From NCBI RefSeq assembly GCF_008281175.1, contig NZ_CP036524.1, positions 1,860,001-1,924,000 of the forward strand: DNA of 64,000 nt. Reading direction: 5' to 3'. Shown here in pieces: positions 18,760 through 35,905 of this stretch. The position numbers were made by a program, and so were the translations under genes. Within the stretch, counting starts at the first letter, position 1; each line of letters begins with the position of its first letter. A model generated the notes under the pieces. It did no database searches. It was not told the origin of the DNA and saw only the letters and a list, made by a program, of their open reading frames with translations. Origin of the DNA: [Clostridium] hylemonae DSM 15053. GTDB lineage: Bacteria > Bacillota > Clostridia > Lachnospirales > Lachnospiraceae.

Positions 18760-18788
18760 ATCATATCATGACTGAAACATTGATTCAA
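18760..18788 (-). promoter_or_regulatory. Probable obgE operon promoter
   Basis: On the minus strand TTGAAT (18788-18783) and TATGAT (18765-18760) are 17 bases apart. The -35 overlaps the outer end of the 18785-18830 palindrome. Confidence 0.55.
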
Positions 18789-18830
18789 TTGGGGACGGGG
18801 GAAATTTAATTTTCCCCCGTCCCCAATTGA
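18785..18830. repeat. Perfect 20-bp-arm palindrome, second REP-like family
   Basis: A 20-nt arm at 18785-18804, containing GGGGACGGGGGAAA, is perfectly mirrored at 18811-18830 around a 6-nt loop. It lies between the rpmA terminator and the obgE promoter. It is similar in size and design to the 33-35 kb REP repeats but has a different core. It does not resemble a terminator, since no T-run follows. Confidence 0.75.
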
Positions 18831-32782: not shown

Positions 32783-33265
32783 TTACTCGTGTATGACATC
32801 GGCATACGACGCGTCTGCCGCTCTTCTAAGATCCTCCGGCGCAAGTTTCAGCTGCATGCCAAGCTTACCCCCGCTTACATACATATGAGAAAGAGATTGT
32901 GCCGATTCCTGGATCACCGTCGGATACTGCTTTTTCATCCCGATCGCTGTGCACCCTCCGCGGATATAGCCTGTCACCTTTGTCAAGTCCTTGAGATGCA
33001 GCATCTCCAGCGACTTCTCGCCGACGACGCGGGCAGCCTTCTTAAAATCGATCTCCGCCTCGATCGGAATGACAAACACATAAAAGCCCCCGCTCTTCCC
33101 GACAGTCACCAGCGTCTTGTAGACAAGACTGCGGTCCGTACCAAGCATGTCGGCAACCTGGAGCCCGTCCACAAACTCATCACATTCGTAAGTATCATAC
33201 TCGTACGAGATCTTCATACGATCCAGAATGCGCATCGCATTCGTCTTAACTTCCTTCTTGCCCAT
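32783..33265 (-). CDS. ybaK: YbaK/EbsC-family Cys-tRNA(Pro) deacylase
   Basis: 160 residues of the YbaK/ProX fold: KTNAMRILDR..., YKTLVTVGKSG, VGEKSLEMLHLKDLTKVTGYIRGGCTAIG with the conserved Lys and Gly-Gly. It trans-edits mischarged Cys-tRNA(Pro). The ATG at 33265 follows AAAGGAGG, and REP repeat A abuts this ribosome binding site, so the 5' leader carries the palindrome. Confidence 0.93.
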   Translation of the reverse strand: MGKKEVKTNAMRILDRMKISYEYDTYECDEFVDGLQVADMLGTDRSLVYKTLVTVGKSGGFYVFVIPIEAEIDFKKAARVVGEKSLEMLHLKDLTKVTGYIRGGCTAIGMKKQYPTVIQESAQSLSHMYVSGGKLGMQLKLAPEDLRRAADASYADVIHE

Positions 33266-33276
33266 AGCTCCTCCTT

Positions 33277-33329
33277 TTTTGAAAGGGGTCAGACCCCTGT
33301 GATATGAAGGGGTCTGACCCCTTTCAAAA
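33277..33329. repeat. REP-like double palindrome, copy A
   Basis: 22-nt arms at 33277-33298 and 33308-33329 are perfect inverted copies around GTGATATGA. Each arm holds its own near-palindrome GGGGTC-A-GACCCC. It lies between the radical SAM stop (33350) and the ybaK ribosome binding site. Its 39-bp core (33284-33322) is identical, in inverted orientation, to that of copy B. Confidence 0.95.
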
Positions 33330-33349
33330 TTCTCCTTATTTTCAGACTT

Positions 33350-34267
33350 CTAAGTGAATTGGTTATCGTCAAACAAACTCAACTGTTCACACTTATATGG
33401 TGCCTTGTAGTTGTGTATGATATCTTTCATACTGTATAAAATCTCATTTTTTTCGCATTCTTCTTTGAAACATGTCCATAGCTTTCCTGCTCTTGGACTT
33501 CTGCATTCATAATATGTTCCGTACCGCTTGTTATATTTTTCGGAAAGCTTCTCTCCGGGAAACAACTGATCCAGCTTTTGCAGATACCACTGCCGTTGAT
33601 TATTGCGCAGTGTCACACCAAATGCAGGATAGATAAAACGTGCTCCGCATTGCGCAGCTCTACGAACAATTGCACGTATATTGTCGTCACTGTCCTCCAG
33701 AAATGGGAGGACAGGCATGAGGAGAATTCCGGCCGGGATTCTCCGGCCGGACAACTCGCCGAGCATATCAAAACGACTGGAAGATACCGGCGCCCCGGGT
33801 TCAATTTTGGAAGAAAGGGCGTCGCCCGCCGTAGTAATGGTAACTTTACACAGAACAGGTGAATGTTCCCTGATACTTTCCAATATATCGATATCTCTCA
33901 TGAGCAAGGTACTTTTTGTCGCGATCGTGACGCCGAATTCAAATGCATCGCACAACTCAAGTGCATGTCGCGTCAGCATAAGTTCTTTTTCATACGGGTT
34001 ATACGGATCGCTCATCGCTCCGGTAGCAATGACCCCTTTTTTCGTCTTCCTCCGCAAATCATCTCTGATTATCTGTAGCGCATTTTCCTTAGCACGGACT
34101 TCGTCGAACCTGTCAATGCCGTAACAGTCTGAACGACTGTCACAATAGATACAGCCGTGACAGCAGCCTTTATAAATATTCATATTATAATCCGCACCAA
34201 ACCACTCTCCTGGTTTCTTCATACGCGTCACAATCGTTTTTGCCGGTATATATTCCATAATTTTCAT
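33350..34267 (-). CDS. SPL/Rv2578c-type radical SAM protein
   Basis: 305 residues. The 4Fe-4S site is CCHGCIYC (C-x3-C-x2-C), after NMNIYKGC, with GAMSDPYNPYE and TKSTLLMRDIDIL further on, as in the Rv2578c/spore-photoproduct-lyase-like family. The annotated ATG (34267) lies inside repeat B, and its only possible Shine-Dalgarno (AAGGGG) is also in the repeat; a second ATG is 9 bases on, at 34258. The gene is bracketed by REP copies A and B. Function not known; DNA repair is one possibility. Confidence 0.85.
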   Translation of the reverse strand: MKIMEYIPAKTIVTRMKKPGEWFGADYNMNIYKGCCHGCIYCDSRSDCYGIDRFDEVRAKENALQIIRDDLRRKTKKGVIATGAMSDPYNPYEKELMLTRHALELCDAFEFGVTIATKSTLLMRDIDILESIREHSPVLCKVTITTAGDALSSKIEPGAPVSSSRFDMLGELSGRRIPAGILLMPVLPFLEDSDDNIRAIVRRAAQCGARFIYPAFGVTLRNNQRQWYLQKLDQLFPGEKLSEKYNKRYGTYYECRSPRAGKLWTCFKEECEKNEILYSMKDIIHNYKAPYKCEQLSLFDDNQFT

Positions 34268-34313
34268 AGGGGTCAGACCCCTTCATATCACAGGGGTCTG
34301 ACCCCTATGAAAA
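34261..34313. repeat. REP-like double palindrome, copy B
   Basis: 22-nt arms at 34261-34282 and 34292-34313 around TCATATCAC, the reverse complement of the copy A spacer. The outer few bases differ from copy A (CATAGG in place of GAAAGG). It overlaps the start codon of the radical SAM gene and lies between that gene and the divergent transposase gene. Confidence 0.95.
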
Positions 34314-34393
34314 TTCTCTCCTTTTTCTGAATTCTTCTGGTCTTTTTATTATAACTGTGATATCATGTTTGCACAATAAGAAAGGAGGTAACT

Positions 34394-35137
34394 ATGCCGA
34401 GAAAACCGAGAATGCGAAGCTCTACAGATATGTATCATATTACAAACCGCGGCATCAACAAAGTCAACATCTTCAACTCTGAAAATGATAAGAAACAGTT
34501 CTTACGTATCTTACATAAAACATGTAAACAGTATCCAATTGAAATCTATTCTTATTGTGTAATGTCAAATCATTTCCATTTGCTTCTGAGAATTCCTTTT
34601 GCCGAGCTGTCCGCTTTCATCCAACAGATTTCCACTACTTATGCAGTGTATTACAATTTCAAATATAATAGAGTAGGTCATGTATTTCAGGGACGTTATC
34701 ACAGTGAGACTGTTGAGAGCGAAAGATATTTCTGGTGCTGTGTCCGCTATATCCATCTCAATCCAGTTCACGCCTCACTTGCACCCTCTCCTGCACATTA
34801 TAAGTTCAGCAGTATGAAAGAATATCTCAAAAAATCCAGACTTCTTCTCCATCCGAAAGCATTTCAGCTATATATCCAAAATTTCCCGGGCGCCGCCGAT
34901 TTCCAACAATTCCATAACAATCGTGACCATTTCATCTATATTGATACGCCTGAAGAATTGTTTGCCAGAAAAGAACTGCTTATTGACGAATGCGCAAAAA
35001 TTTTCCTGGCGGGAAAAAATCTGCCTTCCAAAGAAGCAATCTTCTGGTCTCCCGAGTTAAAGAAAGAGTTTATAACATATGCGTCAGACAACTTAAAGGT
35101 ATCGAAAGCAGAAGTCAGTCGATATGTTAAATTTTGA
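34394..35137 (+). CDS. REP-associated tyrosine transposase (RAYT, Y1/HUH)
   Basis: 247 residues. N-terminal RxYHITNRG, HUH metal motif SNHFHLLLR (His60 and His62), GHVFQGRYHS and the Tyr region CVRYIHLNPVHA are the marks of TnpA-REP proteins. A C-terminal part of about 100 residues extends beyond the Y1 core. AAAGGAGG precedes the ATG. The TGA stop (35135-35137) lies inside the left arm of REP copy C, and copy B lies 80 bases upstream, so the gene sits between two of its presumed target repeats. RAYTs are single-copy, domesticated relatives of IS200 transposases that spread REP palindromes. Confidence 0.93.
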   Translation: MPRKPRMRSSTDMYHITNRGINKVNIFNSENDKKQFLRILHKTCKQYPIEIYSYCVMSNHFHLLLRIPFAELSAFIQQISTTYAVYYNFKYNRVGHVFQGRYHSETVESERYFWCCVRYIHLNPVHASLAPSPAHYKFSSMKEYLKKSRLLLHPKAFQLYIQNFPGAADFQQFHNNRDHFIYIDTPEELFARKELLIDECAKIFLAGKNLPSKEAIFWSPELKKEFITYASDNLKVSKAEVSRYVKF

Positions 35138-35182
35138 AAGGGGTCAGACCCCTATGCGCATAGGGGTCTGACCCCTTTCAAA
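35133..35182. repeat. REP-like double palindrome, copy C
   Basis: A perfect 50-bp palindrome centred on ATGCGCAT, with the same GGGGTC-A-GACCCC arm as copies A and B but a different, self-complementary spacer. It contains the RAYT stop codon and ends 6 bases before the DUF2344 stop at 35189. Confidence 0.95.
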
Positions 35183-35188
35183 TTCCTT

Positions 35189-35905
35189 TCAAATTTCAAG
35201 CGCATCAAGCGGCACGAGCTGGCTGTCTTTTCTGGCGTATACTTCGAGTCTGTGATAGTGTACGGGTATTTCTGCCATATCAAGTCCCATATATGTGCCA
35301 AACGCTTCCATTACAAGGTCAGGTTTCAGATTTTGTTCGCTTCCGGTGGCGAGCAGCAGATAGATACTGTCCTCGCTCACTTTTAACTCGTAGATCATTG
35401 GTTTTATGTCTACTTCTTTTTCACTTCGCTTCGTCTTTTTCCATACGACGATCTGTTCTTGATCCATGAAAGATTCTGCCTGCTCCGCCCACGATTCGGG
35501 CAGTTTTTTTGTGACTTCAGACGTCCGGAACGTCTCCGGAAGTGTCACTTGATAACCTGCGGCTGCCACGATGGTCATGCCGCTGCTTTTCTTATCGTCT
35601 GCTATTCTTACAAAACTGACAACTTCGATTCCTTCTACCATGACTGAGTTGAGCTGGCTTACGGCATCGTCAGGTGAGATATTCCCGGTCAGTTCAATAT
35701 CGAAATACTCTGCATCACTTGTGATTCCAATGCCAAGCGGCTGTGCGAACGACATGACCATATGCGGACTGTAGCCCGATGTAAACGCTATCGGAATCTC
35801 TGCCCGCCTCATAGCCTTTTGAAAATAACGCATGACATCCAGGTGGCCGATGAACTTCATGACCCCGAACTTACGAAACTTGATTCTTGCTTTCAACACA
35901 GACAC
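35189..35905 (-). CDS. DUF2344 / TIGR03936-family protein
   Basis: 238 residues, starting ARIKFRKFGVMKFIGHLDVMRYFQKAMRRAEIP with the characteristic FTSGYSPHMVMSFAQPLGIG. Always found next to a TIGR03960 radical SAM gene; here it overlaps that gene by 35 nt. The molecular role is not established. In many Firmicutes rng and rplU come next; here rplU is 15 kb away and no rng is in the window. Confidence 0.9.
   Translation of the reverse strand: MSVLKARIKFRKFGVMKFIGHLDVMRYFQKAMRRAEIPIAFTSGYSPHMVMSFAQPLGIGITSDAEYFDIELTGNISPDDAVSQLNSVMVEGIEVVSFVRIADDKKSSGMTIVAAAGYQVTLPETFRTSEVTKKLPESWAEQAESFMDQEQIVVWKKTKRSEKEVDIKPMIYELKVSEDSIYLLLATGSEQNLKPDLVMEAFGTYMGLDMAEIPVHYHRLEVYARKDSQLVPLDALEI

Follow-up and report, generated by a model that had tools for sequence, protein, structure and literature searches.

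What do three double palindromes, alternating with a radical-SAM gene (rSAM) and a RAYT gene, represent in a Lachnospiraceae chromosome? The initial annotation of this DNA proposed a mobilized block with rSAM as a possible passenger; the repeats may also belong to the RAYT and be kept in place for reasons other than mobility. The host role of RAYTs and the persistence of REP doublets are both standing questions, and the phylum of the Lachnospiraceae is hardly covered in the REP literature examined, in support of the earlier remark that such systems are little studied there. The window considered here is the whole stretch of 64,000 nucleotides that was analyzed. Its source genome, G000, is a single contig of 3.83 Mb and forms with G001, G002 and G003 a genus set of four genomes. 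This set offers a natural experiment, as shared sites can be compared between species that carry the RAYT and one that does not. The locus comprises the following features.

32783..33265, minus strand: ybaK, Cys-tRNA(Pro) deacylase (TIGR00011 above cut-off), a host gene on the left flank
33277..33331, no strand: double palindrome A, between ybaK and rSAM, with two GGGGTCWGACCCC cores and loop TGTGATATGAA
33350..34267, minus strand: rSAM, radical-SAM protein of the PA0069/Rv2578c type (profile searches), a probable ancestral neighbor
34259..34313, no strand: double palindrome B, between rSAM and the RAYT gene
34394..35137, plus strand: RAYT/TIRYT, Y1 (HUH) transposase of 247 aa (Pfam Y1_Tnp, 1.4e-15)
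35130..35182, no strand: double palindrome C, 3' of the RAYT gene
35189..35905, minus strand: DUF2344/TIGR03936 radical-SAM-associated protein, a host gene on the right flank

Each of A, B and C consists of two GGGGTC-W-GACCCC cores, starting 23 or 24 nt apart, within a longer perfect inverted repeat whose arms measure 22 nt in A, 24 nt in B and 25 nt in C. At up to two mismatches, the window holds six core matches where 0.75 are expected, a number reached in 0 of 100 shuffled windows, and as single-stranded DNA each doublet folds into one long hairpin (z = -8.7, -10.9 and -11.1 for A, B and C, respectively). A chance origin of the cores is thus excluded, and the three double palindromes first annotated are real by their coordinates and perfect arms, by shuffling and by folding, with all z-scores below -8. 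The 39 nt that A and B were said to share in opposite orientation are indeed identical. In G000 the loop of A is the reverse complement of that of B; since the A loop differs and the B loop is conserved in the other RAYT-bearing species, G001 and G003, the resemblance appears to stem from a local transfer that took place recently in the G000 lineage. Orthologs of A in G001 and G003 are perfect doublets, while B has orthologs in both species and, in mutated form, in G002, where a broken half copy of C persists at the DUF2344 end.

The repeats touch coding sequence at the three places previously reported: A adjoins the ribosome-binding site of ybaK, an arm of B includes the rSAM start codon (34265-34267), and an arm of C includes the TGA stop of the RAYT gene (35135-35137). 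Palindrome B also encodes the first rSAM residues, which places the start of rSAM translation within a hairpin arm; this step might be controlled by folding of the hairpin or by RAYT binding at B. An Rfam search of the doublets returned no family at gathering score, and weak microRNA-like matches were rejected as chance matches to long hairpins. An outer AATTnTCWGAnAATT motif, considered as a separate repeat, has only two exact matches in the genome, both beside doublets, and is therefore a loosely defined outer portion of the element.

The RAYT carries the HUH motif NHFH (H60, H62), Y119 in YIHLNP and an FQ motif, and scores 78.3 bits against the NCBI model NF047646 (REP_Tyr_transpos), whose cut-off is 80. 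None of H60, H62 and Y119 varies across 26 relatives, and the active site is intact. In the AlphaFold model (pLDDT 89.8), the long C-terminal extension is helical; the best PDB match of this model is 4er8, in which the E. coli RAYT is in complex with a REP hairpin. Together with the Y1 transposase and the REP-type doublets, this fold match supports the REP/RAYT-type system that had been suspected. Substitution rates between G000 and G001/G003 (dN about 0.13, dS above 1) reflect purifying selection on the gene. It is present in single copy in G000, with one 37%-identical paralogue besides, and the multiple near-identical transposase copies that are a hallmark of IS200/IS605 were not found in this genome. 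Inverted repeats flank the RAYT gene on both sides (B and C), as they do in L018 and L019. The orthologs in these two loci have YIHNNP, not the YIHLNP of the window protein, and helix-turn-helix profiles match the relatives L154, L157 and L161, not the window RAYT. The protein appears to fit TIRYT/subclass 2.1, an assignment by motif that the YIHNNP orthologs leave not fully clean.

Exact GGGGTCWGACCCC cores number 92 in the whole G000 genome, against none for a reversed-pattern control, so that the many genomic copies anticipated for this repeat do exist. Nearly all lie in inverted, REPIN-like doublets, about 45 in total, with arms of type AATTTTGAAA or AATTTTCATA, a variable loop of 10-11 nt and an A/T-rich hairpin foot (ATTTTGAAA or ATTTTCATA). 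The other three genus genomes have 86, 50 and 92 exact cores, and 57 genomes of other genera only three in total. The cores contain GGGGTCAG, a GGGGWSAS motif, on one strand or the other; no GTAG or CGTC guide was found in the arm consensus, and the doublet is therefore not a canonical GTAG REP. A text search of the literature for the core sequence gave no match. The G000 doublets are nearly all intergenic, in gaps that a simple ORF caller classifies as 35 codirectional, 10 convergent and 2 divergent.

Some sites have three cores, such as L101 (G000:360396) and L163 (G000:3468709), suggesting local duplication of half-units. One G003 doublet (L184:7999 and 9526), intact in G001, is interrupted by about 1.5 kb of sequence that recurs almost unchanged in other G003 stretches; doublets are therefore themselves targets of a mobile element. 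We also considered a functional regulon and rejected it, as no shared function was found among the nameable neighbors of doublets (selD, uvrB, ilvC, adenine deaminase, pstA, nifS-like and transketolase-like genes).

The association of palindromes with RAYTs extends beyond this family of repeats. The paralogous RAYT of G000, at G000:528019, is flanked by palindromes of a second, GGGACG type, of which this genome has 74 copies. Matching hairpins occur on both sides of 10 of the 24 other RAYT loci with enough flank in the family and genus, with motifs that vary by lineage, and at none of the control loci (0 of 26; 0 of 18). At least seven GGGACG-type copies are found in 8 of 34 RAYT-bearing genomes versus 1 of 116 others, with a Fisher p of 3e-5 that serves as a guide only, the genomes being related. 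The window has one member of this second family, at 18785-18829 (TTGGGGACGGGGGAAATTTAATTTTCCCCCGTCCCCAA). A different long palindrome (beginning GGGACGGTTCYTCGTTCC) is present in 13 copies in G012, a RAYT-negative genome of the family.

Within the genus, G002 differs from the other species in its RAYT locus. It aligns with the window across ybaK, rSAM, B and the leader of the RAYT gene as far as position 34384, and again from 35185, beside the broken half of C; synteny is lost at the RAYT ribosome-binding site and regained past the end of the gene, and about 22 kb of different DNA fills the interval. No orthologous RAYT was found in G002, only paralogues of 40-42% identity; this genome represents a natural RAYT loss. 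The DNA at the RAYT site (L260, G002:C52:108000-127500) has large ORFs of 1070 and 1012 aa and may be a mobile island.

To measure doublet integrity, we compared 41 canonical G000 sites with the orthologous positions in G001, G002 and G003, where flanks are mostly 73-95% identical. Doublets are perfect at 40 of 41 sites in G000, 37 of 39 in G001 and 41 of 41 in G003, versus 13 of 34 in G002 (Fisher p = 4e-10 for perfect and not perfect sites, G003 versus G002). The remaining doublets of G001 have no core substitution where the flank rate predicts 54, and those of G003 none where it predicts 37. The contrast between 0 of about 91 expected substitutions with a RAYT (78 doublets of G001 and G003 pooled) and 16 of 24 expected at the flank rate without it (22 doublets of G002) points to protein-dependent upkeep in place. 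At a further 12 G002 sites the doublet is gone; in most of them a loss of 23 or 24 nt has left a single perfect core, as slippage or recombination between two cores would be expected to produce. Two G001 sites have collapsed despite an intact RAYT.

The G002 genome is a draft. Collapsed repeats in its assembly could in principle give a false impression of lost cores, though not of point changes; sampling there was limited to sites that retain one or more exact cores, which underestimates decay. Tips are similar in a tree of 28.5 kb of flanks (0.056 for G001, 0.042 for G002 and 0.034 for G003), hence G002 has not evolved unusually fast. The GGGACG-type palindromes provide a small internal control: all three that could be compared are intact in G002, which retains their likely RAYTs. 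These observations suggest that the RAYT is needed for doublets to stay intact, apparently by selection in place, for the single loss lineage among the genomes compared; another change on the G002 branch could be responsible. The simplest reading is that the core of every site is under RAYT-dependent selection, with RAYT-driven local conversion as the rival.

We therefore favor, with moderate confidence, a TIRYT/RAYT-REPIN system whose doublets would be kept in place since the RAYT-doublet complex would be useful to the cell. The RAYT would recognize the doublet folded as a hairpin, in single-stranded DNA or possibly RNA, much as E. coli TnpAREP binds REP hairpins. In the ancestor of the genus, doublets would have spread by RAYT-catalyzed single-strand cutting and joining, and copies would have landed or survived mostly behind stop codons. 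New copying would now be rare, and old doublets would be retained at their sites through a useful complex that acts on the chromosome, the replication fork or transcripts. After loss of the RAYT, doublets would become nearly neutral, accumulating substitutions while their two cores recombine or slip to leave one. We propose more tentatively that the former transposase may act as the trans-acting partner of about 45 frozen hairpins, with a benefit to the host site by site and purifying selection only while the RAYT exists, a reading that contrasts with REPINs viewed as a copying population.

A selfish REPIN population, in which RAYT copying to new sites outpaces decay with no benefit per site, would agree with REPIN theory, with the larger number of REPINs in E. 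coli where a RAYT is present (PMC8049555), with the intact active site and selection on the RAYT gene, and with the loop transfer between A and B, by which inter-doublet exchange appears not to be absent. However, ongoing copying should produce turnover and leave decayed remnants. No movement of doublets is apparent: the 41 sites compared are at orthologous positions, nearly all sites are shared by species whose flanks diverge by 9-16%, and almost no decayed copies lie at old sites in RAYT-bearing species. Two sites are absent from G000 (one present in G001-G003, one in G001 and G003); unrelated intergenic sequence was found there and no clean empty site. Furthermore, loops are ortholog-specific, with an identity of 0.88 between G001 and G003, near flank level, versus 0.50 for random sites; whole-element replacement would mix loops and is therefore not the main upkeep route. 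We consider a selfish population unlikely.

Less likely again is repair in place, in which nicking or remodeling of the doublet by the RAYT would cause its four GGGGTC half-cores to convert one another locally, with no host benefit. This process would be RAYT-dependent, would leave loops untouched and fits the G002 collapse, but correction within an element has no reason to favor one global core. It predicts site-specific variant cores, and the 78 doublets of G001 and G003 have none.

The position of the doublets calls to mind a cis function independent of the RAYT, which would be there by chance: hairpins could by themselves be transcript 3' ends, stability elements or attenuators. Stop codons adjoin many G000 doublets (23 of 55 within 12 nt of a core), doublets also precede ribosome-binding sites, and RNA folding is strong (-40 to -45 kcal/mol). 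Yet only one of the three window copies looks like a terminator, decay is specific to the RAYT-less species, the coupling of RAYTs and palindromes recurs elsewhere in the family, and single-core remnants can still fold, a plain hairpin role requiring no doublet. We regard such a function as improbable.

A mobile A-to-C cassette with rSAM as passenger is highly improbable: the three doublets do bracket both genes, but another genus (G104) has rSAM between ybaK and DUF2344 with neither RAYT nor palindrome, and rSAM homologues occur in 65 of 150 family genomes, nearly always single and, in the cases compared, on different contigs from the RAYT. Gene order in G104 is AspK, ybaK, rSAM, DUF2344 and a B12-type radical-SAM gene, with matched regions around rSAM 13 bp and 32 bp apart, which argues for rSAM as an old neighbor of ybaK and DUF2344, outside the element. 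Comparison of the ybaK-DUF2344 interval, as the initial annotation had advised, shows A-rSAM-B-RAYT-C at equal spacing in three of the four genus genomes (G000, G001 and G003). Mobilization of the whole block is contradicted; only the RAYT with B and C looks like an inserted unit, which plausibly entered between rSAM and DUF2344.

Part of this picture is already known, namely the TIRtron architecture with GGGGWSAS repeats (PMC3733652), REPINs (PMC3116915) and, at the level of counts only, the lower number of REPINs without a RAYT in E. coli (PMC8049555). According to the literature examined, the occurrence in Lachnospiraceae is new, as are the link between palindrome families and a RAYT group described as devoid of them (PMC6006769) and site-by-site evidence suggesting that doublets are fixed in position and stay free of changes only as long as the RAYT is present. 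Named sites and species are now given for testing RAYT-dependent upkeep.

In the TIRYT/TIRtron system (PMC3733652), a Y1 transposase gene lies between inverted repeats with GGGGWSAS, and the repeats can form a moderately abundant family, often of dimers; no obvious correlation was found between transposase genes and repeat families. The present system likewise has a Y1 gene flanked by GGGGWSAS repeats and a dispersed family of mostly dimers. It differs by its occurrence in Lachnospiraceae (Firmicutes), its approximately 45 fixed orthologous sites and the comparative sign of RAYT-dependent upkeep. With REPIN-RAYT systems (PMC3116915, PMC8049555) it shares inverted doublets, a hairpin with variable loop, a single-copy, vertically inherited RAYT, fewer elements without the RAYT and single cores, seen here as decay products and noted as a REPIN form in PMC3116915. 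Unlike REPINs, it has no GTAG-type guide, its cores are near-perfect palindromes, and its copies are frozen at their sites where REPINs are a population that turns over.

The window protein may belong to TnpAY1 subclass 2.1, or RAYT group 1 (PMC6006769): it has the NH[YF]H, FQ and Y[IV]HLNP motifs, the last of which reads YIHNNP in its orthologs, and a long C-terminal extension, for which a helix-turn-helix is matched in relatives; this subclass is described as probably corresponding to TIRYTs. That survey reported subclass 2.1 genes to have no REP-like sequences nearby, whereas matching hairpins lie on either side of the gene here and in the related Lachnospiraceae loci counted above. Finally, the predicted fold and the placement of HUH and tyrosine are those of E. 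coli TnpAREP-REP (4er8), at 18% identity across the aligned structures. The REPs of E. coli have a GTAG guide (PMC6006769) and are imperfect palindromes, whereas the cores described here are near-perfect and no such guide was seen.
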